A stretch of DNA of 36,619 bases from a bacterium (GTDB taxonomy: Bacteria; Auribacterota; UBA3054). The translations under genes were made by a program, and so were the position numbers. Below the pieces are notes generated by a model. The model worked only from the letters and a program-made list of their open reading frames with translations, had not been told where the DNA came from and searched no databases. Position 1 is the first letter of the stretch. Every line of letters begins with the position of its first letter. The stretch covers positions 1 to 36,619 of the forward strand of contig JAFYHD010000181.1 in the NCBI GenBank assembly GCA_017539325.1. The letters are read 5' to 3'. Shown one piece after another: positions 5,491 through 34,747 of the stretch.

Positions 5491-6888
5491 ATGCAGCAGC
5501 AAGAGAATCAAAACATCGAATATAAGGAGATCTGGAGAGACGAGTGCCTGAAATGGATATGCGGCTTTGCCAACGCTCATGGCGGAACCATCTATGTCGG
5601 AGTCAATGATTCCGGCAAAGTTATTGGCCTGCAAAATGTCAGAAAACTTATGGAGGATATTCCAAATAAGATCCAATCCAGTTTAGGGATCATAGCTGAC
5701 GTAAACAAACATACAGAGAATGGGCTGGACTACATCGAAATAATAGTTGAGCCGAGCTCTTTCCCAATCAGTTATCACGGCGAGTTCCACTATCGCTGCG
5801 GAAACACAAAACAGCAGCTTAGAGGAATGGCCTTATCGGAATTTGTCATGCGTAAACTTGGCGTCCACTGGGAGGACGGAACAGTAGATAACTTAACTGT
5901 TGATGATCTGGACGAGGAAAGCTTTAGGATATTTAAGAGAGAAGCTCTTCGCAAAAAACGAATGACCAAGGAAGAACTTGACATTCCCAGAGAAGAACTC
6001 CTTAACAAACTGCAGCTAATGGAAAACGGCAAGTTGAGACGATCAGCGGTACTTTTGTTCTACCACGATCCTTCGATCCTTCAGAACGGCACTCATGTTC
6101 AGGTTGGTAAATTCGCCAACAGGGTAGATATTTTATACCACGACATGCTGGAAGGATCTTTGATAACGACGGCTGACAAAATTGTTGACTTGATTTTCTT
6201 AAAGTATTTGAAAGCAAAAATTACTTTTGAGCATGACAGACGAATGGAAACATACCCGTACGCTCGCGAAGCCGTTCGCGAGGCAGTATTCAACGCTATG
6301 ATACACAATTGCTACATTCCGGGAACTCCCATACAGATACGCATCGACGAGGACGAGATGATGATAAGCAATACCTGCGTTCTGCCTGAGGGATGGGATT
6401 TGGATTCTTTCATGACCAAACACTCTTCAAAACCATATAATCCCAATGTGGCAAAAGTTTTTTATCTCGCCGGATATATTGAGCATTGGGGACGAGGAAT
6501 CGAAAATATCTTTGACGCTTGCAAGAAACTCGGAGCCGAACCTCCGGTGTACGAATTAATTGGATATACCTTGCAAGTACATTTGAAGGCGTTAAAAAGT
6601 GCGTTGATTGATGAGCAAAAACTTTCAGATGTCGGGAAGGATGTCGGGAAGGATGTCGGGAAGGATGTCGGGAAGGATGTCGGGAAGGATGTCGGGAAGG
6701 ATGTCGGGTTAGCCAACAAAATTATCGGATTAATTCTGAATAACCCAAAAATAACAATTCCAGAAATTGCCAAAAAAATAGAAGTAACATCAAGAACCAT
6801 TGAGCGAGAAATTAAAAAATTACGAGAAAGTGGATATTTAGTTCGTGTAGGTGGCAGAACCTTTGGACATTGGGAAGTCAAAGATTAG
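5491..6888 (+). CDS. AlbA_2/Schlafen-type ATP-binding transcriptional regulator with DVGK repeat
   Basis: This 465-residue protein has three parts. An N-terminal AlbA_2 (Schlafen AAA_4) domain begins at NIEYKE and includes WICGFANAHGGTIYVGVNDSG. A middle domain of the RecG-like/HATPase_c_4 type contains YPYAREAVREAVFNAMIHNCY and GRGIENIFDACKKLG. A C-terminal winged helix contains ITIPEIAKKIEVTSRTIERE. Such proteins are often annotated as putative transcriptional regulators or wrongly as RecG helicases; their ligand is usually unknown. The linker before the winged helix is six perfect DVGK units plus DVG, encoded by an identical 12-bp DNA repeat. The ATG is supported by GGAG six bases upstream. 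It stands alone between an accessory operon and convergent priA. Confidence 0.85.
   Translation: MQQQENQNIEYKEIWRDECLKWICGFANAHGGTIYVGVNDSGKVIGLQNVRKLMEDIPNKIQSSLGIIADVNKHTENGLDYIEIIVEPSSFPISYHGEFHYRCGNTKQQLRGMALSEFVMRKLGVHWEDGTVDNLTVDDLDEESFRIFKREALRKKRMTKEELDIPREELLNKLQLMENGKLRRSAVLLFYHDPSILQNGTHVQVGKFANRVDILYHDMLEGSLITTADKIVDLIFLKYLKAKITFEHDRRMETYPYAREAVREAVFNAMIHNCYIPGTPIQIRIDEDEMMISNTCVLPEGWDLDSFMTKHSSKPYNPNVAKVFYLAGYIEHWGRGIENIFDACKKLGAEPPVYELIGYTLQVHLKALKSALIDEQKLSDVGKDVGKDVGKDVGKDVGKDVGKDVGLANKIIGLILNNPKITIPEIAKKIEVTSRTIEREIKKLRESGYLVRVGGRTFGHWEVKD
6628..6708 (+). repeat. Perfect 12-bp tandem repeat in coding sequence
   Basis: The unit GATGTCGGGAAG is repeated six times without mismatch (6628-6699), followed by a partial GATGTCGGG (6700-6708). 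It encodes DVGK units. Because 12 bp is four codons, gain or loss of units keeps the frame and only changes linker length between the sensor part and the winged helix. Confidence 0.95.
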
Positions 6889-17189: not shown

Positions 17190-19688
<2,499 letters not shown>

Positions 19689-19838: not shown

Positions 19839-22800
19839 CTATCTCTTAGGCGCCAGAGCCTTCAATTTTTCAACCACGTCATTTCTGCCCTTCTTCGCGC
19901 ACCAATCGAAGAAATATTTAAGATAACGATAGTTATACTCATGTTCCATCAGACCGCTCTTCTCGATGATCGCGCAAAAATCATCGGCGCAGCTGGCGGG
20001 GCTGTCATCGGTTAACCGCTTGGTCAGGAATGGTATATCCCCCGTTATCGGCCCGCCTTCCTTCCTAATGAAGGAAATTAGTTCCGCGAACTCCTTGGGA
20101 TCATCGGTAAAGCAGGCCAATTCAACGGCATAAGGCAGACTGTGCTCTTTTTCCCAGCCCCCTTTTACGAAAGACTGGAACCAGTTGGTCTCGGACAATT
20201 GCCCAAGCCTTCTCAAAGTAAGCAGGTCATGTTTCGGCAGTTTCGTCAGATACGGCAGAACTATCTCTTTAGCAAGCTTCATTTGGTAATCATTATAACC
20301 GGACCAGAGCCAATACGTTCTCAAAACACTTTCAAGATCTTTTTCCGCCTGAGCCTGCAGCCATTTTTTGTCAAATTCTTCCCGATCAGGGAAAAGCGTC
20401 TTGTGTAATTTTCTTATTTCACGTCTTTCAAAGTGACGCCTTATCGCGTCAAGCGCTTGAAAATAGTCCTCGTGATCTTCCGGAATAAGATAGACCTTTT
20501 CCGCAGGATAATTATCAACTAAGAACGTCAAAGCTTCTTCCGCGTGTTTTCGTTCAGAGAGAACTGTACAATATTGCTTAAGCAAGGCCAGACATTCCGG
20601 ATGCTCTTTCAACGCTTCTTTAGCGTATTGAATAAAAATCTCCTCCTGCCCGTATTCCTTGCAAAAAGCGAACGTCTCTTCAATATCCCATTTGAACAGA
20701 CTAGGCATGTAAATGGAAGGCTGCCATCGGTCGCCATATCCGAACACGTTCCTCTCAAAATCGTTAGTCTCATGATAATGCAGCCTGGAATAATCAAGAG
20801 TATTCAAAACTCTTTCGGCTACTCTTGGAAGTTCGTTGGTCTGATCAAGAAAAACCAGCGCATCCGCCACCTGGTAAAAAGTTATTGAATCAAGTATTTC
20901 GTAAGCGGCAGAACTACCGGAAAAAAGCGATGCGATATGGTTTCGTCTTAAACACTTTTCGTTGACGGACGCGTTGACCAGAGCATCGACGAATTCTTGG
21001 AAGGTAAAATGCCCGGCTTTTTCGCAATTCTCCAAAAGCCTCGTCTTGAGTTCCTCCTTTATAATTCCGGTGTTGTCTTTCAAATTTTCCAGCGGAAATT
21101 TCGCGAAATCAAGCCAGTTTGCCACCGCCTCGGATAATTTGTCCGTAAAAAGCAGTCTTTTCCAAAGCGGCAACCATTCGCTTTGGGAGTGCCTGAAGTA
21201 ATAGGTCTGCTTTTTTGTCGACACTGGAGAATATTCAATTTCCTTCTCTATTTTTTCTTCAAGCGCCTTTTTAGGATCGTAATAGGTGATTTTATCTTTC
21301 CGTTCTGTGTTTTTCAGGATAGAATCAACTTCACTTGCAACTTCAGGAACGTTCTTTGAAAGGCACCATTTCTTAAACCGTTCAGCATAATAAGGAAAAT
21401 CAGGATTGCTCTTTATATCGCTTCCCTGTATCATGTCGAGAATAATCTTGGCGCAAGATGAGGGGTAATTATCCCTAAGGCTGACAATAATGCATGATAT
21501 CCCCACTTGGTCTTTCTCGGGAGATAAGATCCTCAAACAGTTTGTAAACTCCTCCGGATCGTCGGTAAGAGTGGCTAGATAAAGTGCGCAGAAAATATTG
21601 TCTTCTTTTTTCAGCTTTTTCCTTAGGTAACACTTGAAATCATCCTGATCAGATATCTCGGAAAGCCTTCTGACAATCGATAAAGAAGGCTTTTCAACGT
21701 TTTCAAGCATCGGCTTAACCAACTTTTTTTTGATTTCATCATAAGAAAGATACGTCAGAGAGGAATGCGATGGGCTTTGGCCTTCCCAAAACCATCCGGC
21801 ACTTCGGCAGAACTCATGAGGATTGTGATAGAGTTGCCATTGAAGCACCTTAAAAAGAGGAGACGGCTCTTCCCTGGTGCTTATAGTATCATTCAATGAA
21901 ACGCGCAATCCTGCATATTCAGGGTAAGCTTCCGTGAAAGTGCATATCTTATCAACATTAAAATGCTTATTTAAAAACTCTATGGCTTTTTCCCTATTAC
22001 CAAGGCGCTCACAATAAAATTTCGTGAGAAAAAAACAATTGCTTTGAGTATCGGCAAAACTTTCAAGCTCTTTAAAAAAACTGTCCTTAATGCCGCAGCG
22101 TTCAGCGAACATAAACAATTCCCACCATTTGCCGATAATATCATTCTTAATTAACTTATAATAGCCTTCGAAACTAAAAGTAGTTATATCTCCCAAAGAT
22201 TGTTCGCCTAATGTGCTGCCGCAAAATTCTCTATAATCTCCTTTTTTCAGTTCCTCCAACTTGTCCAGCAAAATCTTTTCACCACCGTTTTTCAGGCTAA
22301 GAATTTTCAGTACATCGCTTACGCTTTTAAAATTATAAGAATATCTTGTAGCTGTTTTTTTCTGTTCATTCTTTGAAAAGTACATATAAGCATAGCACGC
22401 CGGATAACAGCAGTTCCCATCCGTACGCATCTTTAAAAGCGCATCGGAAAAATCATCCAGCGTGAAGTGGCCTGGTTCTTCGCAGAGTTTTTTAAATTCA
22501 GTCGCAATGTTCAAAAAATGAGAATCGTCCGGCCAAGTAGGATTGTCGACTTGACACAGGAAAAAGAGCGGGACTTTCGCAAAGTTTAGCCAGTTGGTGA
22601 CGGACTCCGCCAGCGTTCCGTTCAATAGAATCTCTTTCCAAACCGGCAGCCATTCTTCCTTTGGAGCTGTTCTGTGATATTCCCACTGCGCTTTGAGAGG
22701 ATCGGATATTTCCTTTTCCTTGGCGTATTTCTCAATGTTCTCTTTCAATTTCTGGGAAGGAGAAAGAGATGTTTCTTCCGCCATTGAAACAACGGAACAG

Positions 22801-22850
22801 GCGAACGCGAAAGCTATAAGCGCGAGCAAAATATAATTGAGCTTTTTCAT
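19839..22850 (-). CDS. Large secreted two-module protein, unknown family (paralog 1)
   Basis: This is a 1003-residue protein from the ATG at 22850, chosen for its signal peptide (MKKLNYILLALIAFAFACSVVSMA) and an AGGAG seven bases upstream. No known domain is recognised. It contains two homologous modules of about 500 residues. Each begins with an EWLPxWK...NWLxFAK block (near residues 66 and 557), followed by a HFTxxxFxDAL block. Each ends with a RRL..S, GWEKE-like, TDDPxEF, PASCA and F..WC series. It is predicted all-helical and soluble after export, resembling a solenoid, with scattered Cys and no enzyme motif. Paralogs lie directly upstream in the same orientation. It is AT-richer than the gyrase genes next to it. 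A surface or periplasmic role in protein binding is possible but not shown. Confidence 0.85.
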   Translation of the reverse strand: MKKLNYILLALIAFAFACSVVSMAEETSLSPSQKLKENIEKYAKEKEISDPLKAQWEYHRTAPKEEWLPVWKEILLNGTLAESVTNWLNFAKVPLFFLCQVDNPTWPDDSHFLNIATEFKKLCEEPGHFTLDDFSDALLKMRTDGNCCYPACYAYMYFSKNEQKKTATRYSYNFKSVSDVLKILSLKNGGEKILLDKLEELKKGDYREFCGSTLGEQSLGDITTFSFEGYYKLIKNDIIGKWWELFMFAERCGIKDSFFKELESFADTQSNCFFLTKFYCERLGNREKAIEFLNKHFNVDKICTFTEAYPEYAGLRVSLNDTISTREEPSPLFKVLQWQLYHNPHEFCRSAGWFWEGQSPSHSSLTYLSYDEIKKKLVKPMLENVEKPSLSIVRRLSEISDQDDFKCYLRKKLKKEDNIFCALYLATLTDDPEEFTNCLRILSPEKDQVGISCIIVSLRDNYPSSCAKIILDMIQGSDIKSNPDFPYYAERFKKWCLSKNVPEVASEVDSILKNTERKDKITYYDPKKALEEKIEKEIEYSPVSTKKQTYYFRHSQSEWLPLWKRLLFTDKLSEAVANWLDFAKFPLENLKDNTGIIKEELKTRLLENCEKAGHFTFQEFVDALVNASVNEKCLRRNHIASLFSGSSAAYEILDSITFYQVADALVFLDQTNELPRVAERVLNTLDYSRLHYHETNDFERNVFGYGDRWQPSIYMPSLFKWDIEETFAFCKEYGQEEIFIQYAKEALKEHPECLALLKQYCTVLSERKHAEEALTFLVDNYPAEKVYLIPEDHEDYFQALDAIRRHFERREIRKLHKTLFPDREEFDKKWLQAQAEKDLESVLRTYWLWSGYNDYQMKLAKEIVLPYLTKLPKHDLLTLRRLGQLSETNWFQSFVKGGWEKEHSLPYAVELACFTDDPKEFAELISFIRKEGGPITGDIPFLTKRLTDDSPASCADDFCAIIEKSGLMEHEYNYRYLKYFFDWCAKKGRNDVVEKLKALAPKR

Positions 22851-22914
22851 GGGACACTCCTTTCGGGGAAATTGTGAATAACTACCATATCTATTATACA
22901 ATAACCCTTGTCAA
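22851..22914 (-). promoter_or_regulatory. Conserved upstream block of paralog 1
   Basis: This 64-bp block before the ATG is nearly identical (four mismatches by eye) to the block before paralog 3 (29394-29457). It contains TTGACA (22914-22909) and TATAAT (22898-22893), but only 10 bp apart, so they are not a standard pair. The TATAAT, or a -10-like hexamer about 17 bp after the TTGACA, may serve. Similarity stops exactly upstream of the TTGACA, at a run of 14 A residues. Confidence 0.5.
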
Positions 22915-22990
22915 AAAAAAAAAAAAACGCCTATAAGTTGGCTTATATAAGATGGTTATATATGCAAGCCCGTTCTTTCGCGGCTATGCC

Positions 22991-23044
22991 AAAATGGACA
23001 GGTGTCCATTTTAGTAACCACCAAAATGGATAGGTGTCCATTTT
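22991..23044. repeat. Two tandem perfect/near-perfect palindromes
   Basis: The arms AAAATGGACA (22991-23000) and TGTCCATTTT (23003-23012) flank GG. A second copy, AAAATGGATA (23023-23032) with TGTCCATTTT (23035-23044), has one changed base. With flanks the two copies form a 26-bp direct repeat at a 32-bp period. They lie 7 bp after the stop of paralog 2, so they may act as A/T-flanked bidirectional terminators, or as a dyad-symmetric protein-binding site or REP-like element. Confidence 0.85.
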
Positions 23045-23050
23045 AGGAAA

Positions 23051-25981
23051 CTAAATCTGTTGTTTAAGCGAGTTAAGTTTGTCCGCTAGGTCTTTTCTTC
23101 CTTTCTTTTCACACCACTCGATAAAATGACCCAAAAAACGCCGATTGTATTCTGTTTTCAACATTCCACTTTTTTCAACGAGCGTCATCATATCATCAGC
23201 GCAAGAGGCTGGGCTATCATCATTCAATCTATAGGTTAAAAACGCTACGTCTCCTAACTTGGGGCAGCCTTCCTTTGCGATGAAAGAAAGCAATTCGGCA
23301 AATTCTTTGGGGTCTTCTGTAAGGCAGGCCTCTTCTATCGCAAAAATAAGATTTTTATTCTTCTCCCAGCCTTCTTTAACGAAAGCCTTGAACCAGTTGG
23401 TTTCGGAAACCTCTTCCAAGCGGCGCAAAGTCAGCATATCCTGCTTGGGCAAAGCCGCCAAATAGGGCTGAACAACTTCTTTTTTTAATTGATCTCTGCG
23501 CTGGTTGGAACCATACCAATAATCATACAATCTTAAAGTTCTTTCACAATTATCTTCCAGCTGAGTCTTGAGCCATTTTTTTGTGATCTCTTTACTATCC
23601 CAACCTATGCTGTCGATGAATTTATAGGATTCTAAATTATCATCCGCAATATGATAAATCTTATCCAAGGTGTAATTCTTTTCTACAAAGGCAACCGCTT
23701 CCTGCTTTTTATCTTGTTTTATTAGTTCTAAACAATATTTATCAAGCAAAGGCAAAGCTTCATAATGTTCTTTAAGCGCTTCCGGAGCATATTTTAAAAA
23801 AACATCCTCTTGTCCATATTCTTTGCAGAAAGACCATCGGTTCTCAAGATCCCAAACAAATGCGCTTGGACCAATAATATCGGCCACCCAACGGGATGGA
23901 CCATCTTTGCGCCCGACGCATATTGAACTCTCGTGATGAAAAATTCTGGTGCTTTGCAGCAAAGAATAATCAAGAGCATCTAGCACCTTTTCAGCAACTC
24001 TGTGAAGCTCGTTGGTCTGATCAAAGAAAACCAACGTGTCGGCCACCTCGTAAAAAGTGGTAGTTCTAAGGCATTTTTCGATGGCTCGAGTATCTGAAAA
24101 AACTATAAAATCTTTCCTATGATAATAGTTTTTATCCACAGTTGGGGCGTTGATTAGAGCATCTATAAACTCCTGAAAGGAAAAATGGCCTTCTTTTTCA
24201 CAGGCCTCCAAAAGCCTAAATTTCAGTTCTTTTTTTATTATGCCTGCTTTGTCCTTCATTTTTCCCATTGGAAATTTTGCAAATTCTAACCAATTGGTGA
24301 CAGCCTCTGACAAATCGTCCGGGGACAGCAGTTTTTTCCAACGTGGCAACCACTCTGTCTGTGAGGTTTCTTTATAATATTTTTCTCTTAATTTTAATCT
24401 TAATCCTAGAGCATCTAAAAAAGGGATCTCTTTAAGCTCTTTTGGGGAATCCGAATCACTTTTTCTAGCTATTTCCTCGGTGTTTTGAAGAATAGCATCA
24501 ATTTCTGAAGCCGCCCCGGTGATATTTTTGGCAAGACACCATTTTTTAAAATGTTTGCCATAAAAAAGAAAATCCGGGTTATTATCAATTTTGCTCTTTC
24601 TTATCATTTCCAGGATTGGTTCGGCGCAGGAGGCGGGGAAATTTTCCCTCAGGTTTAAAATAATGCAAGATACGCCCACCTGATTTTCCAAGCCGGTCAG
24701 TAATTTTAAGGAAGCCTCAAATTCTTCAGGGTCTTCAGTCAAAGCTGCCAGAAACATCGCCAAATTGATATCTTCTCGCTTTTTAAGCTTATTTCTTAGG
24801 TAAGATTTGAAATCCTCCGGCTCGGAAATCAAAAAAAGTCTTCTTATAACTGAGAAGGAGGGATAGTCTTCATCTTCGAGTATTGGTTTAATAAAATGCG
24901 TCTTTTCGTGAACATAATGATCATAATCGTAATCGTTTTCCAACCCTGGCCCGCTCCAGAACCATTCTGCTTGATTGCAGAAATTATCACGATTATAATA
25001 CAACTGCCATGTAAAAAATTGAAATATAATCGAACTGCGATAAGGCTCGTCCAAAGTAATATTCAAATTCCTGCATAAGCTAACATATTCCGGCAATGCC
25101 TCTGTCAGAGTGCAGACTTTATCCAACGGGAAATTGCTTTGAACTAATTCTTTTGCCAATTCTTTATCACGCAGAAAGTTGTAATAGTATTGTGTCAAGA
25201 AAAAGCAATTGCTTTTTAGGCTAGCCACTTTTTTCAGTCCGTCCAAAAATGCCGTTTTGGTATTGTAATGCAAAGAAAATCTATACAATATATCCCACTT
25301 CTTCAAGATGCCGTTTTTCTTAGGGATCGATAAATAATCGCAGGTGCTCATGTCACCTAGCACTGGCTCCTTGGTTGTAATACCGCGAAATTCTCGATAA
25401 TCGCCTTTTCTTAAATCCTCGGACAATTTAAGAGTTATTTCATCCAATTTATCGTTAAGTCCCAAAAGCTTTAAAACATCACAGAGGTCGTAAATGTTGT
25501 AAACGCTATTTTTGGCGCAGAATTTTCTGTTTTCACTAGCTTGTACTAGATTTGATATGTTTAAAATACCGTCTTTGCACTCAAGCAATTTATTGGCAAA
25601 TTCGCTGGCGGTAAAATAATTTGAAGAAGCGCATTTCTCATAAAATAAGGTTCTTAACCTTTCGCTTACATCATTGTTATGCCCAAGGACGTAAGGAAAA
25701 TGTCCCCTTGCTAAATAGATCCAAAAGTAGGTGTGCATTGATGAGTGGGGAAAAAGTATTTTTTCCCACAGGGGAAGCCATTTTTCCTTGGGAGTTGCCT
25801 TGTAGTATTCCTCGTAAACATCCATCGGTTTAGCGATATCATTTGCTTTCCCAAATTCCTCAATGCTTTTAGATAACTCAACATATGCGTCATAAGGATA
25901 ATCACTATCAGCGAAAGAATTATTGCAAATCGCAATCATTAAGCTCGCCGACACAAGCAAAAGATAGTTGAGTCTTTTCAT
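23051..25981 (-). CDS. Large secreted two-module protein, unknown family (paralog 2)
   Basis: This is a 976-residue paralog of the genes on either side. The signal peptide is MKRLNYLLLVSASLMIAICNNSFA, and AGAGGA lies upstream of the ATG at 25981. It has the same two-module plan: KWLPLWEKIL near residue 64 and EWLPRWKKLL near residue 541. Each module then has the F...EF...AL, ADTLVFFDQTNELHRVAEKVL-type and TEDPxEF...PASCA blocks, and ends ..HFIEWCEKKGRKDLADKLN. Sequence identity with paralogs 1 and 3 is spread along its whole length but is clearly lower than between the N-termini of 1 and 3, so it is an older copy. No known domain is recognised. The 226-bp region before it contains a relic of a serine acetyltransferase gene. 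Confidence 0.85.
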   Translation of the reverse strand: MKRLNYLLLVSASLMIAICNNSFADSDYPYDAYVELSKSIEEFGKANDIAKPMDVYEEYYKATPKEKWLPLWEKILFPHSSMHTYFWIYLARGHFPYVLGHNNDVSERLRTLFYEKCASSNYFTASEFANKLLECKDGILNISNLVQASENRKFCAKNSVYNIYDLCDVLKLLGLNDKLDEITLKLSEDLRKGDYREFRGITTKEPVLGDMSTCDYLSIPKKNGILKKWDILYRFSLHYNTKTAFLDGLKKVASLKSNCFFLTQYYYNFLRDKELAKELVQSNFPLDKVCTLTEALPEYVSLCRNLNITLDEPYRSSIIFQFFTWQLYYNRDNFCNQAEWFWSGPGLENDYDYDHYVHEKTHFIKPILEDEDYPSFSVIRRLFLISEPEDFKSYLRNKLKKREDINLAMFLAALTEDPEEFEASLKLLTGLENQVGVSCIILNLRENFPASCAEPILEMIRKSKIDNNPDFLFYGKHFKKWCLAKNITGAASEIDAILQNTEEIARKSDSDSPKELKEIPFLDALGLRLKLREKYYKETSQTEWLPRWKKLLSPDDLSEAVTNWLEFAKFPMGKMKDKAGIIKKELKFRLLEACEKEGHFSFQEFIDALINAPTVDKNYYHRKDFIVFSDTRAIEKCLRTTTFYEVADTLVFFDQTNELHRVAEKVLDALDYSLLQSTRIFHHESSICVGRKDGPSRWVADIIGPSAFVWDLENRWSFCKEYGQEDVFLKYAPEALKEHYEALPLLDKYCLELIKQDKKQEAVAFVEKNYTLDKIYHIADDNLESYKFIDSIGWDSKEITKKWLKTQLEDNCERTLRLYDYWYGSNQRRDQLKKEVVQPYLAALPKQDMLTLRRLEEVSETNWFKAFVKEGWEKNKNLIFAIEEACLTEDPKEFAELLSFIAKEGCPKLGDVAFLTYRLNDDSPASCADDMMTLVEKSGMLKTEYNRRFLGHFIEWCEKKGRKDLADKLNSLKQQI

Positions 25982-26034
25982 AACGCTATCCTCTGGAAGA
26001 ATGATTTAAAGAAAAACTCCATGTACATTCTACT

Positions 26035-26059
26035 ATATTTTTGTGAAAAACAAAAATAT
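26035..26059. repeat. AT-rich inverted repeat upstream of paralog 2
   Basis: ATATTTTTGT (26035-26044) and ACAAAAATAT (26050-26059) are perfectly complementary around five bases. The repeat lies 54 bp upstream of the ATG of paralog 2 on the minus strand. It could be an operator or a weak terminator of the upstream unit. Confidence 0.5.
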
Positions 26060-26098
26060 AAACACAATATTACTAACAAATTAAATGAAAAAACTCTT

Positions 26099-26179
26099 TT
26101 ATGAGCGGAAGGTGACGACTGCGCCGGGGGCGACGTTGGATGTCACCCAGCTTTTGCCGCCTATTACGGCCGACGAATA
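26099..26179 (-). pseudogene. Relic of the 3' end of a second serine acetyltransferase gene
   Basis: Reading the minus strand to the stop at 26101-26099 gives about 25 codons ending IGGKSWVTSNVAPGAVVTF-RS-stop. The end of the intact cysE at 30214 reads IGGNSWVTEDVPPGTLVTF-RS-stop. The match covers the last hexapeptide turns and the exact C-terminus. Similarity stops upstream near 26177, where the frame soon meets a stop. The fragment lies between the end of paralog 3 and the start of paralog 2. Confidence 0.8.
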
Positions 26180-26207
26180 GTTGCAATGCTTAAATCATTA
26201 AAACTTA

Positions 26208-29200
26208 TTAACGGTTTCTTTTTGCAGTTTTTCCTTGGGCAATTTTTGATTTAACTTCTTCAGCAACAGCATTGTCACCTTTGCTTTCGCACCATTCCAT
26301 AAATATCTGCAATTGCTTTAGGGCGCTGTATTCGTCCGTAAGTTCGTTTGTCTCTATCAAACTCAAAAAAGATTTTGCACAGCTTGCAGGGGTTTTTTCA
26401 TTTAATTTTCCTATTAAGAAACAAATATCTCCCTTATTCAAGTATTTGTTCTCAGCCAAAAACGCCACAAGTTCTTCAAATTCCTTGGGATCATCCGTCA
26501 AGCACACCTTCTCAACAGCGAATGGCAGGGTTTTCTCCTTCTCCCATCCTGTGTTAAGGTAATCTTTAAACCAGTTTGTCTCTGATATTTGCCCAAGTCG
26601 GCGCAAAGAACTAAAACTCTGTTTCGGCATAGCCAGAATATAAGGCTTTACGACTTCCTTGGCTATAGCTATCCTCTTCTGGTCCAAATTAAACCAGAAC
26701 CAGTACGCTGTTAAAAAAGCCTCTATATCCTTTTCCATCTGCGCTTTTACGCTGTTCTTATCAAGTTCATCTTGACTAGGGAAGAATTTATCCACTCCGC
26801 ATTCTTCCATGCGTGCATCAACGTCTATCCCAAAAAATTTATCCATAAAGTAATTATGGAGCGTTGCTTCGATACTACTACAGTTTTGCACCGCTCCGGG
26901 AACAGGATAAAACTTTTCAGGCGGATAATTATTTCTTACAAAATCCCAAGCCTCTTCTCCCCTCTCTTGTTCAACGAGGTATGAGCAGTAATTCTGAAGC
27001 AATAAAAATTCATCAGGATGCTCTTTAAGGATCTCCTTAACAGCATTCTCGTAAGCATCGCAAGCCCCGAAATCTTTGTAGTCTTTGCAGAAACAAAAAG
27101 CCCACCAAACATCGGGAGTGTTATTTGGACTCGAAACCGGCATGCTGCCACGCTGATAAGAGCAAATTTCGCCACCCTCTCTCAAGTCCAACTCACCGGA
27201 TTTGGAAAAATCCAAGCTTTTCATAAGCCTGGTTGCCAAACGCGGTATCTCATTGGTGCAACCCAAAAACACAAGCGCGTCAGCTATCTGATAAAAAGTC
27301 AGGGAATTCCGCAGACGTTCAGCCCTGTCAATGTCAGAATACCACCCAGCAGAATTCACTGGGTCAATTGATTCGCTGACAGGAGCTTTGACAAGAGCGT
27401 CCACAAATTCATTAAAAGTGAATTGCCCATTCTCTTCGCAATATTTTCTGAAACGGTCGTTCAATTCCCTCTTTAAAGTGCCGCTGCTGTCCTTAAGGTT
27501 GTGCATCGGGAACTTAGCGAATATAAGCCAATTGGAAACGGACTGGGAGAGATTTCCGGAAACAAGGATTTGTTTCCATGCCGGCATCCATTCGCGCTGA
27601 GGATTATTTTTATAGTAAATTTCCTTTCTTGAAATTGGAAACAAATTTATCGTTTTGCTTATCTTTTCGTCAAGAAATCTTCTGGGGTCGTTTCTCCACT
27701 CCGGTTCTTTCACTTTTGTCTCGCGGATCAGTTTGTCCAGTTCAGATACCACAGCAGTTTCACCAACCTTATCACACCACTTTCTGAATTTATCGGCATA
27801 ATACGGGAAATCGTGATTGGCCGCAATTTCGCTCGCCTTTATCAACTTCAATATGCCATCTGCGCAGGAGGCGGGAAAATTATCTCTTAAATTGGTTATG
27901 ATGCAGGCCACTTCCGCTTCGTTTATGCGTATGAGGCATTCTCCCGACAATCTTGGTTCTTTATGCGTCAAAACTTCCACGGCTTTTGCAAAATCTTCCG
28001 GATCGTCTGTTATAACGGCCAGTTCGAAAGCCACCGCATTATTCGGCTGTTTTTGTCTTGCTGATTTTTCTTTAAACTTTTTCCCTAAATAATCTTTGAA
28101 ATCCTCAATATCAGACTGCTCGCCTAAACGCCTTATGGTGTATTCGGAATGGTAATCCAAACCTTCCAGCATCGGCTTAGCTATTTTTCTTTTAGCTTTA
28201 CTGTAACTGTCGAATTTGTTTTTCCTGCCGCTTTCCCAAAACCATTTTCCCCATTCGCAAAACTGAGGTGCGTTGGAATACAGCTGCCACATGACCACCT
28301 CGCAATCTCCGCCTGGCTCTCTTCCGGAACGATATATAGGCATTTCCAATTCGTTGCATAAAGAAACATACCCTTCATATGCGCAAGGCATTTTGCAAAT
28401 CTTCTCTAAGGGATAAAACTTTTTAAGGAACTCGCGCGCGGTTTCGCGATCGTCATAGTCGCAGAGAGTATCGCAATAAAGTTTTGCCAGCGGAAAGTAA
28501 TTCGAATGAATTTCCGCAGCCTCTTTCAAGCCTTTCACAAAGGTATTTTGCATTCTGCAATGATTGGCCAGCCCGGAAAGCCCTAACCATACCGAATTAT
28601 TGCCTTTAAAAGAAATTTGCGTATCGATGCTCGGCTGGCTCGCTGTCCAATCAATACTGATATCATGATCATAATAAGGATCATCTGTAGTGTTCTTGAT
28701 CAACGGGATATCGTCAAACGTTGAATCAATGTCTCCCAAGCAGCGATTTTTGTAAAAAGTTTGAACAAATTCATTATAATTCGCTTTTTTCAATCTCTCC
28801 AGCCATGCAGATATGATATTTTCTATCTCCTTAGTCGAGCCCAAAAGTCTCAGCGCATCGCATACGTTGAAAAAATGATAAGAGTTCTTGGTGGCCCATG
28901 TTTTATGTTCACTTTGACCAGCGTATTTAAATAAATCGCCAGCCGGATAACAGCAATCACCATCTGTGCGCACCTTTAAAAGCGCGGCGGAAAAATCATC
29001 CAGCGTGAAGTGGTCCGGTTCTTCGCACAACTTTTTAAAATCAGTCGCGATATTCAAAAAACGAGAATCGTCCGGCCAAGTAGGGTCATCGACCTGACAC
29101 AGGAAAAAGAGCGGCACTTTCGCAAAGTTGAGCCAGTTGGTGACCGACTCCGCCAACGTTCCGTTCAATAGGATCTCTTTCCAAACCGGCAGCCATTCTT

Positions 29201-29393
29201 CCTTCGGCGTTTTTTCGTGATATTCCCACTGCGCCTGAAGAGAATCAGATATTTCTTTTTCCTTGGCATATTTCTCAATGTTCTCCTTCAATTTCTGAGA
29301 GGGGGAAACGGGCGTTTCTTCCGCCATTGAAACGACGGAGCAGGCGAAAGCGAAAGCTATGAGCGCGAGCGGAAGATAATTGAGCTTTTTCAT
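26208..29393 (-). CDS. Large secreted two-module protein, unknown family (paralog 3)
   Basis: This is a 1061-residue protein from the ATG at 29393, chosen for its signal peptide (MKKLNYLPLALIAFAFACSVVSMA) and an AAAGGA upstream. It is the longest of the family. Module 1 begins with EWLPVWKEILLNG near residue 66, module 2 with EWMPAWKQIL near residue 600. Both show the later PASCA (TPASCAKSFLSLIE in module 2) and ..FMEWCESKG endings. The first ~145 residues are almost identical to paralog 1, after which the two diverge abruptly. The C-terminus ends in a basic stretch (AQGKTAKRNR). No known domain is recognised. It is transcribed toward paralog 2 and follows the truncated paralog at 29467. Confidence 0.85.
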   Translation of the reverse strand: MKKLNYLPLALIAFAFACSVVSMAEETPVSPSQKLKENIEKYAKEKEISDSLQAQWEYHEKTPKEEWLPVWKEILLNGTLAESVTNWLNFAKVPLFFLCQVDDPTWPDDSRFLNIATDFKKLCEEPDHFTLDDFSAALLKVRTDGDCCYPAGDLFKYAGQSEHKTWATKNSYHFFNVCDALRLLGSTKEIENIISAWLERLKKANYNEFVQTFYKNRCLGDIDSTFDDIPLIKNTTDDPYYDHDISIDWTASQPSIDTQISFKGNNSVWLGLSGLANHCRMQNTFVKGLKEAAEIHSNYFPLAKLYCDTLCDYDDRETAREFLKKFYPLEKICKMPCAYEGYVSLCNELEMPIYRSGREPGGDCEVVMWQLYSNAPQFCEWGKWFWESGRKNKFDSYSKAKRKIAKPMLEGLDYHSEYTIRRLGEQSDIEDFKDYLGKKFKEKSARQKQPNNAVAFELAVITDDPEDFAKAVEVLTHKEPRLSGECLIRINEAEVACIITNLRDNFPASCADGILKLIKASEIAANHDFPYYADKFRKWCDKVGETAVVSELDKLIRETKVKEPEWRNDPRRFLDEKISKTINLFPISRKEIYYKNNPQREWMPAWKQILVSGNLSQSVSNWLIFAKFPMHNLKDSSGTLKRELNDRFRKYCEENGQFTFNEFVDALVKAPVSESIDPVNSAGWYSDIDRAERLRNSLTFYQIADALVFLGCTNEIPRLATRLMKSLDFSKSGELDLREGGEICSYQRGSMPVSSPNNTPDVWWAFCFCKDYKDFGACDAYENAVKEILKEHPDEFLLLQNYCSYLVEQERGEEAWDFVRNNYPPEKFYPVPGAVQNCSSIEATLHNYFMDKFFGIDVDARMEECGVDKFFPSQDELDKNSVKAQMEKDIEAFLTAYWFWFNLDQKRIAIAKEVVKPYILAMPKQSFSSLRRLGQISETNWFKDYLNTGWEKEKTLPFAVEKVCLTDDPKEFEELVAFLAENKYLNKGDICFLIGKLNEKTPASCAKSFLSLIETNELTDEYSALKQLQIFMEWCESKGDNAVAEEVKSKIAQGKTAKRNR

Positions 29394-29466: not shown

Positions 29467-30213
29467 TTATTTGGAATCAAGACGCGAGTTTGGCTGATAC
29501 TTTAAAAAGACCGGCAAACAGCCGTATGTTTCACAAAAGCGGCGAGCCCCGGCTAGGTCATGGGAAAATATTCTATCCAAAAAAACATCTTCATTAGGAT
29601 CCGCTGGCTTGTCGAGAGATTTCATCACTCTTTCGGCGACTTTCGGAAGCTCGTTGGTCAGATCCAGGTAAACAAGCGCGTCGGCCAGATTATAAAAAGT
29701 GATTGAAAATCTAACCTCGTCCGCGGCGCGAGAGAGTGACAGGAATTTAGCCGAGGAGTTGGGCAGGAGGCATTTCTCGTTGACCTCGGCATTGACAAGA
29801 GCAGAAGTAAATTTCTCAAAGGAATAATGGCCTTCCTTTTCGCAGCCGGCTTTCAATTTCTCTTTCAGTTCCAGCCGAACGCTTTCGTTGGTTATGCTGC
29901 TCATGTAGGTGTTGGAGAACCTTAGCCAATTTTTGACGGTATCGGAAAGGTCATCCTGGACAAGAATTTTTTCCAAAAGCGGAAGCCATTCCTCTTTCGG
30001 CGTCTTCGCGAAGTACTCTGTTTCGTCATCAACGAGCCAGCGCCTCGTTTCGTTGTTCTCTTTGCTGAATTTGTATATTTTTTCCCACAGCTGGCTGAAA
30101 GGATCGGGTTTGCAAATATCTAGAAACGCGGACACACTGAAATCGGTCTGCGGAAAATCCGCAACCACTGTAAGGGACGCAAAAAGAATGGCGAAAAAGA
30201 ATACGCGGAACAT
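29467..30213 (-). CDS. Truncated secreted paralog (half a module, paralog 4)
   Basis: This 248-residue protein has its own signal peptide (MFRVFFFAILFASLTVVA) and covers only the first half of one module of the large secreted family. It has EEWLPLLEKIL, DTVKNWLRFSN, HYSFEKFTSALVNAEVNEKCLLPN, LADALVYLDLTNELPKVAERV and RRFCETYGCLPVFLKYQ. It then ends in an unrelated short tail (PNSRLDSK) exactly where the paralogs continue with an EALKEH-type helix. The start codon directly abuts the stop of cysE, with no gap. It is either a true short member or a gene cut by the insertion of the paralog 3 unit; the position of the break next to that unit's upstream block favours the second. Confidence 0.75.
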   Translation of the reverse strand: MFRVFFFAILFASLTVVADFPQTDFSVSAFLDICKPDPFSQLWEKIYKFSKENNETRRWLVDDETEYFAKTPKEEWLPLLEKILVQDDLSDTVKNWLRFSNTYMSSITNESVRLELKEKLKAGCEKEGHYSFEKFTSALVNAEVNEKCLLPNSSAKFLSLSRAADEVRFSITFYNLADALVYLDLTNELPKVAERVMKSLDKPADPNEDVFLDRIFSHDLAGARRFCETYGCLPVFLKYQPNSRLDSK

Positions 30214-31092
30214 TCAGGAGCGGAAGGTGACAAGGGTGCCTGGAGGGACGTCTTCGGTGACCCAGCTGTTGCCGCCTATAGTGGCGCCTTTGCCTATGGT
30301 GATGTCGCCGAGGATGGTGGCGTTAGCGTAGATGATGACGTCGTCCTCGATGGTGGGATGGCGTTTACTGTTCCTGGCTTCCCTGGCGTTGGGTGGGAAG
30401 GATTTGGCGCCTAAGGTGACGCCCTGGTAGAGTTTGACGTTTCTGCCTATTACGGTGGTTTCGCCAATGACGACGCCGGTGGCGTGGTCGATGAAGAAGC
30501 GCTCGCCTATTTTGGCGCCCGGGTGAATGTCAACGCCGGTCCTTCTGTGGCCGTACTCCGTCATGATCCTGGGGATAAGGGGAACGCCCATGGAATGAAG
30601 CTCATGAGCCAGGCGCTGAATGGCGATGGCTAGGAAGCCCGGATAGCAGAGGATCACTTCCTCCTTGGCGAAGCAGGCGGGGTCGCCGTCGTAGGCGGCC
30701 TCTATGTCGGTCTTGATTAGGGATCTTACTTTGGGGAGAGTAAGGAGGAAGACTTCCGTAAGGGAAGCGGCTTTGGCTTCGCAGCGGGATTTGTCGCAGT
30801 CGGGGCGTTCGTCTCCCCTGCAGACATAGTTGATGCCTCTCAGGATCTGCTCGGTAAGCTTCGCCTTGACTTCCTCAAGGCGGTAGACCGTGACCGCCGC
30901 GAAGTTCGCTTTAGTCAGACGCTCGGAACCGAAAAAGCCGGGAAGGACGAGAGCTAAGAGCGCCTCGGTTAAGGAAGCGATGTCGTCGCTGCTCGGCAGG
31001 TTCAGTCCGTCGATATGGTTGATGTTGCCGTCCTCTTTGTAGCTTTCGACTAAGTTGGAGGCGGCGTCGCTGACTAGTTTGTTATTGGGCAT
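30214..31092 (-). CDS. cysE: Serine O-acetyltransferase (EpsC/CysE type)
   Basis: This 292-residue enzyme makes O-acetylserine from serine and acetyl-CoA, the first step of cysteine synthesis. An N-terminal helical domain with RCEAKAASL and IKTDIEAAYDGDPA is followed by the left-handed beta-helix: EYGHRRTGVDIHPGAKIG, FFIDHATGVVIGETTVIG, LYQGVTLGAKSFP, HPTIEDDVIIYANATILG, GATIGGNSWV. The conserved Asp and His of the active site are in VDIHP and IDHATG. The long N-terminus is of the EpsC-like type. It follows a PTS IIA gene by 7 bp, and a truncated secreted paralog abuts its stop. A decayed copy of its 3' end lies about 4 kb away at 26099. Confidence 0.95.
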   Translation of the reverse strand: MPNNKLVSDAASNLVESYKEDGNINHIDGLNLPSSDDIASLTEALLALVLPGFFGSERLTKANFAAVTVYRLEEVKAKLTEQILRGINYVCRGDERPDCDKSRCEAKAASLTEVFLLTLPKVRSLIKTDIEAAYDGDPACFAKEEVILCYPGFLAIAIQRLAHELHSMGVPLIPRIMTEYGHRRTGVDIHPGAKIGERFFIDHATGVVIGETTVIGRNVKLYQGVTLGAKSFPPNAREARNSKRHPTIEDDVIIYANATILGDITIGKGATIGGNSWVTEDVPPGTLVTFRS

Positions 31093-34663: not shown

Positions 34664-34747
34664 TGGTGCGAAAGGCGGGACTCGAACCCGCACGTCATCA
34701 ACACCAGAACCTAAATCTGGCGCGTCTACCAATTCCGCCACTCTCGC
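34664..34747 (-). tRNA. tRNA-Leu (anticodon UAG)
   Basis: The minus strand gives an 84-nt tRNA with CCA encoded. Acceptor arms are GCGAGAG and CTTTCGC; the anticodon stem-loop CCAGA-TTTAGGT-TCTGG has anticodon TAG, and a T arm with GGTTCGAGTCC is present. The D loop TGGTAGAC and the short variable arm (TGTTGATGACGT) fit a class II leucine tRNA. It decodes CUA and probably other CUN codons. Confidence 0.97.

Follow-up and report, generated by a model that had tools for sequence, protein, structure and literature searches.

The 72 nucleotides between the second and third of four paralogous genes downstream of cysE in the window (the whole 36,619-nucleotide stretch of DNA analyzed here, from a genome hereafter called G000) are a genuine 3′ tail of a cysE gene, with a match far above chance. 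We hold, with slightly better than even confidence, that the stretch from cysE to gyrB is a variable island driven by recombination and that the relic is a junction scar within it, where an inserted unit of cysE type-A tail, p1, and p2 displaced a type-B tail together with its cargo. The relic and p3 are arranged here as the only cysE and p3 are in the congeneric genome G004, and therefore two alternative cysE–gyrB islands lie in series: an A tail–p1–p2 haplotype followed by a B tail–p3–p4 haplotype, stacked with a cysE tail as the seam. The features of the locus are as follows.

30,214 to 31,092, minus strand: intact resident cysE (serine acetyltransferase), type-A tail
29,467 to 30,213, minus strand: p1, a 248-aa secreted-like paralog whose ATG abuts the cysE stop codon; present in G002 and G005 too
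26,208 to 29,390, minus strand: p2, a 1060-aa secreted-like α-solenoid paralog with a 5′ part common with p4
26,171 to 26,207, minus strand: junction DNA of 37 bp from the p2 stop codon to the relic, forming the left edge of the relic block
26,099 to 26,170, minus strand: relic, the last 23 codons and stop codon (TAA) of a type-B cysE, from DNA matches and diagnostic sites
25,982 to 26,098, minus strand: relic–p3 spacer of 117 bp, collinear with the cysE–p3 spacer of G004 (13 mismatches of 115)
23,051 to 25,981, minus strand: p3, a 976-aa paralog, third from cysE (41 mismatches of 2926 nt versus p3 of G004)
22,989 to 23,046: two locus-specific palindrome copies; the G000 and G004 sequences diverge from here
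19,839 to 22,847, minus strand: p4, a 1002-aa mosaic paralog
17,190 to 19,676, minus strand: gyrB, the conserved right-hand flank

The relic (26,170 to 26,099, minus strand, 72 nt) translates to AVIGGKSWVTSNVAPGAVVTFRS followed by a stop codon, which is the C-terminal tail of the cysE product. An earlier note on this DNA had reported a cysE 3′ end here, and this was borne out by DNA matches to the intact cysE ends of four congeners, G001, G004, G005, and G007 (92–94% identity, E-values of 7.8e-34 to 1.2e-21). In a search of its own genome (a draft assembly of 1,990,726 bases in 183 contigs with 4.14% contamination), the 24-residue relic peptide had no match apart from its own locus and the C-terminal end of the intact cysE product (E-value of 2.8e-6, 70% over 23 aa). 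The extent given in the note, about 25 codons at 26,099 to 26,179, is right at the stop codon (26,099) and too long at the other end, where homology starts at 26,170, or at 26,173 with one more alignable residue, leaving 23 codons and TAA. The note also placed the relic directly before paralog 2; the 117-bp spacer intervenes, and the next gene is p3. The relic DNA was only 81% identical to cysE of G002 and 77% identical to the resident cysE, and an ungapped alignment with the latter gave 76% over 67 nt (family D14), with short exact runs only. Because the relic is nearer to the cysE of other species than to its own, it is no duplicate of the resident cysE. No exact match to a 29-base relic pattern was found in viral contigs. 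In a wider set of genome contigs, from which near records may be absent, cysE had only distant relatives, with 46–58% identity among the 80 matches kept.

The last 72 nt of the congeneric cysE genes split into two types, separated cleanly at eight sites. Type A comprises the resident cysE and that of G002, the nearest relative of G000 by gyrA and gyrB (96%), and type B comprises G001, G004, G005, and G007. The relic is type B at all eight sites, which does not support a duplication of the cysE end and a secreted gene within this genome, as the earlier note had proposed. The three of four order-level relatives with a readable tail (L011–L013) have Ala at the position where type B has Ala; type B is therefore weakly favored as the older type, in an order- and phylum-level comparison that used solely rows displaying a cysE tail. 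The relic contains no internal stop codon and a single base absent from all six other congeneric cysE ends compared, and so it is truncated rather than visibly decayed. This base changes the Asn of IGGN, present in the other six ends, to Lys, which fits lost constraint, yet it amounts to little decay.

Both flanks of the island were readable in six of the eight genus genomes; G003 and G006 were left out because gyrB was not found there, and the loci of G004 and G007 were each read from two contigs that break inside cysE. The gene orders, in gene direction, are as follows.

G000: cysE(A)–p1–p2–relic–p3–p4–gyrB
G001: cysE(B)–p4–gyrB
G002: cysE(A)–p1–gyrB, without relic, p3, and p4
G004: cysE(B)–p3–p4–gyrB, with its sole cysE intact
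G005: cysE(B)–YhcG-type nuclease gene–p1–short p2–gyrB
G007: cysE(B)–p4-like gene–gyrB

Thus, cysE and gyrB were constant and the content between them was different in all six loci. The window's cysE–gyrB interval holds only p1–p4, and no integrase or transposase gene was found in it. The extra gene of G005, between cysE and p1, encodes a DUF1016/YhcG PDDEXK nuclease (L070:15250–16296), and it looks as if G007 retains the first bases of this insertion.

The relic, spacer, p3, and palindrome form a single collinear BLAST block with G004 (3,150 bp, 97.9%), which begins exactly at the relic edge (26,170) and stops at the palindrome end after p3 (23,021); in G004, the same spacer and p3 follow the intact type-B cysE. 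The parts of this block differ in divergence. The relic differs from G004 at 5 of 72 positions and the relic and spacer together at 18 of 187, and the spacer is comparable with the p4–gyrB spacer (15/157; Fisher p = 0.69). Because of this resemblance, the linkage of tail, spacer, and p3 seems to date from about the time when the G000 and G004 lineages split. By contrast, p3 is less diverged than the relic–p3 spacer (Fisher p = 5e-8) and differs at 5 of 300 fourfold sites, versus 21% of those in gyrA/gyrB; p3 itself was therefore probably overwritten later by recent exchange. A single recent arrival of relic and p3 from the G004 lineage was dropped as an explanation, as the relic and spacer are far more diverged than p3. 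The gene p4 is a mosaic of several sources: its ends are divergent, and about 1.2 kb in its middle (gene-direction coordinates of about 14.1 to 15.3 kb; about 22.5 to 21.2 kb in the window) match G001 and G004 at about 100% identity. Identity was also uneven across vatD, pts, and cysE, and together with the near-identical tracts in p3 and p4 this may point to recombination in cargo and flanks. The promoter and 5′ part of p4 are shared with p2 (85% over 612 bp), and the two genes diverge further on.

In the mechanism that we propose, DNA of a related strain carrying the cysE A tail–p1–p2 unit would undergo homologous recombination within the resident cysE at one end, and illegitimate joining would attach the other end about 72 bp short of the end of that gene; alternatively, a single crossover would bring the DNA in as a circle. 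The resident cysE would remain intact with a new tail, the old tail and its cargo would be shifted about 4 kb downstream, and parts of p3 and p4 would later be overwritten by interspecies homologous exchange. Displacement is supported by the type-B relic behind a resident cysE that is type A, like that of sister G002. Recombination is supported by the p4 tract, nearly 100% identical to G001/G004 despite a 7–10% difference in gyrA/gyrB between G000 and these genomes, and the earlier suggestion that the cluster expanded by recombination at cysE is upheld. Against displacement, the relic occurs in only one of the six loci. A 151-bp query spanning the 37-bp junction had no significant match past the relic edge in any of the eight genus genomes, so the donor end was not found and no microhomology is demonstrable. 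Only two short stretches, of 72 and 115 bp, underlie the order of events, and the A tail–p1 arrangement of G002 without relic, p3, or p4 counts against the proposed order: these parts were lost from G002, or else the B block arrived later.

This later arrival is the main rival, which we regard as possible though doubtful: a cysE(A)–p1–p2–…–gyrB locus would have imported the type-B cysE tail, spacer, p3, and palindrome between p2 and p4, and the tail would have come along because the donor fragment broke inside its cysE. The sharing of A tail–p1 with the relic-free G002, the low fourfold divergence of p3, and the end of the block at the palindrome, where two copies stand in tandem, all favor it. 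However, it would need joining with little homology at both ends, and the divergence of relic and spacer, far above that of p3, excludes one recent joint arrival from the G004 lineage.

It is improbable that a whole second cysE(B) formerly lay between p2 and p3 and that a deletion spared only its tail, a reading near that of the earlier note. Such a deletion would be expected to leave an identical scrap, but an intact second cysE, for which the note had suggested looking in related genomes, was seen at this spot in none of the six loci (G004 has its only cysE there), the relic has one unique base in 72, and a motif scan of the loci yielded no further tail fragment.

An assembly chimera of two coexisting strains is very unlikely. 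The draft state of the assembly, its contamination level, and the contigs that end inside cysE in three of the eight genus genomes would suit it, but a chimera requires a shared k-mer at the junction, and the 37 bp before the relic are unlike cysE. These contig ends (L069/G004, L073/G007, and L074/G006) lie very close to one another, at about codons 207–212, and are possibly assembly forks from strain mixtures.

Islands such as SCC elements in rlmH integrate at the 3′ end of a gene and leave it restored, and the present locus resembles them in its regenerated gene end and displaced old end but differs in that neither a recombinase nor a conserved core site was found. That the relic is the attachment-site duplicate of an integrative element targeting the cysE 3′ end is hardly credible: the two tails are direct repeats flanking p1–p2 and insertion there would restore cysE, but the interval has no recombinase gene, the tails are just 76% identical with short exact runs, and the island lacks identical att cores at both ends.

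The cargo of the island here is solely a genus-restricted, apparently secreted α-solenoid family. The proteins p1–p4 gave no Pfam match above the cut-off and no NCBIfam match, and they are called secreted from hydrophobic N-termini judged by eye in the translations. A p2–p4-type profile, built from eight members including a short one, detected relatives in 8 of 44 phylum genomes, namely all eight of this genus and none of the 36 others, and no relative of p2–p4 was found in viral contigs. AlphaFold2 predicts an all-helical solenoid for p4 (mean pLDDT of 77.7, pTM of 0.59). The Foldseek matches were generic α-solenoids with TM-scores of 0.22 or less among the 50 matches listed, and no function is therefore assignable to p4.

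A 24-bp palindrome (≤1 mismatch) was present in four of the eight genus genomes (the window at 22,989 to 23,046, G001, G004, and G005; a degenerate copy is in G007), solely inside this island and at the borders of secreted-gene units. Upstream of p4, a hairpin-like stretch and T run (22,913 to 22,927) adjoin a TTGACA…TATAAT-like promoter, and the run is 15, 14, 14, 12, and 18 T residues long in G000, G001, G004, G005, and G007, respectively, as in phase-variable promoters. We give little credence to the idea that this locus is dedicated to cassette exchange, with the palindrome as exchange site, cysE as fixed end, and the 12–18 T tracts as expression switches; if it were, the cysE tail would ride with incoming cassettes, and the family would be one of genus-specific secreted solenoids.

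The stacking scar reflects a process of a kind already known from other bacteria. In the circle and single-crossover model that Jackson et al. 2009 (PMC2935791) outline for displacement of Rhs C-terminal tips, a conserved gene gains a new 3′ end and cargo, and the old end is shunted downstream, headed by a small piece of the anchor gene, as is the relic–p3 unit. The V. cholerae T6SS effector modules, for which Kirchberger et al. 2017 (PMC5361080) propose, in outline, one-sided homology and illegitimate joining, likewise show module stacking, a displaced 3′ end of the old gene, and spread via homologous recombination. Against the Rhs tips as outlined, the anchor here, a gene for a housekeeping enzyme, remains intact and the cargo consists of separate secreted-like genes; with the T6SS modules, as outlined, what is displaced is an immunity gene or the 3′ end of an effector gene, whereas here it would be a cysE tail and an intact secreted-like gene. 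The island works like such module displacement, yet it is no member of these families, because its anchor is cysE, in place of a polymorphic toxin, and no toxin or immunity gene or pair was identified. It fits the class of integrase-free hotspots, as outlined by Oliveira et al. 2017 (PMC5635113) with a model of double recombination exchange in flanking core genes: variable cargo lies between constant core flanks in 6/6 loci, no mobile-element gene (integrase or transposase) was found in the window interval, and recombination may extend into the flanks. It differs from those hotspots, in the same outline, in that two cargoes are stacked here with a legible seam. No paper on this cysE/gyrB locus was found, as judged by titles and abstract openings.

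These results suggest that alternative sets of secreted genes at one chromosomal spot can be stacked and not merely swapped, with the end of a housekeeping gene as the tag. Displaced gene tails may serve as a search tag at hotspot-flanking core genes to detect and order stacking events, and the locus points to an uncharacterized, apparently secreted protein family exchanged between species. Elsewhere in the window, Rfam at the gathering threshold identified one tRNA only (34,667 to 34,747), and a 12-bp unit is repeated 6.8 times with no mismatch at 6,628 to 6,708, inside an open reading frame, where it encodes repeated DVGK.
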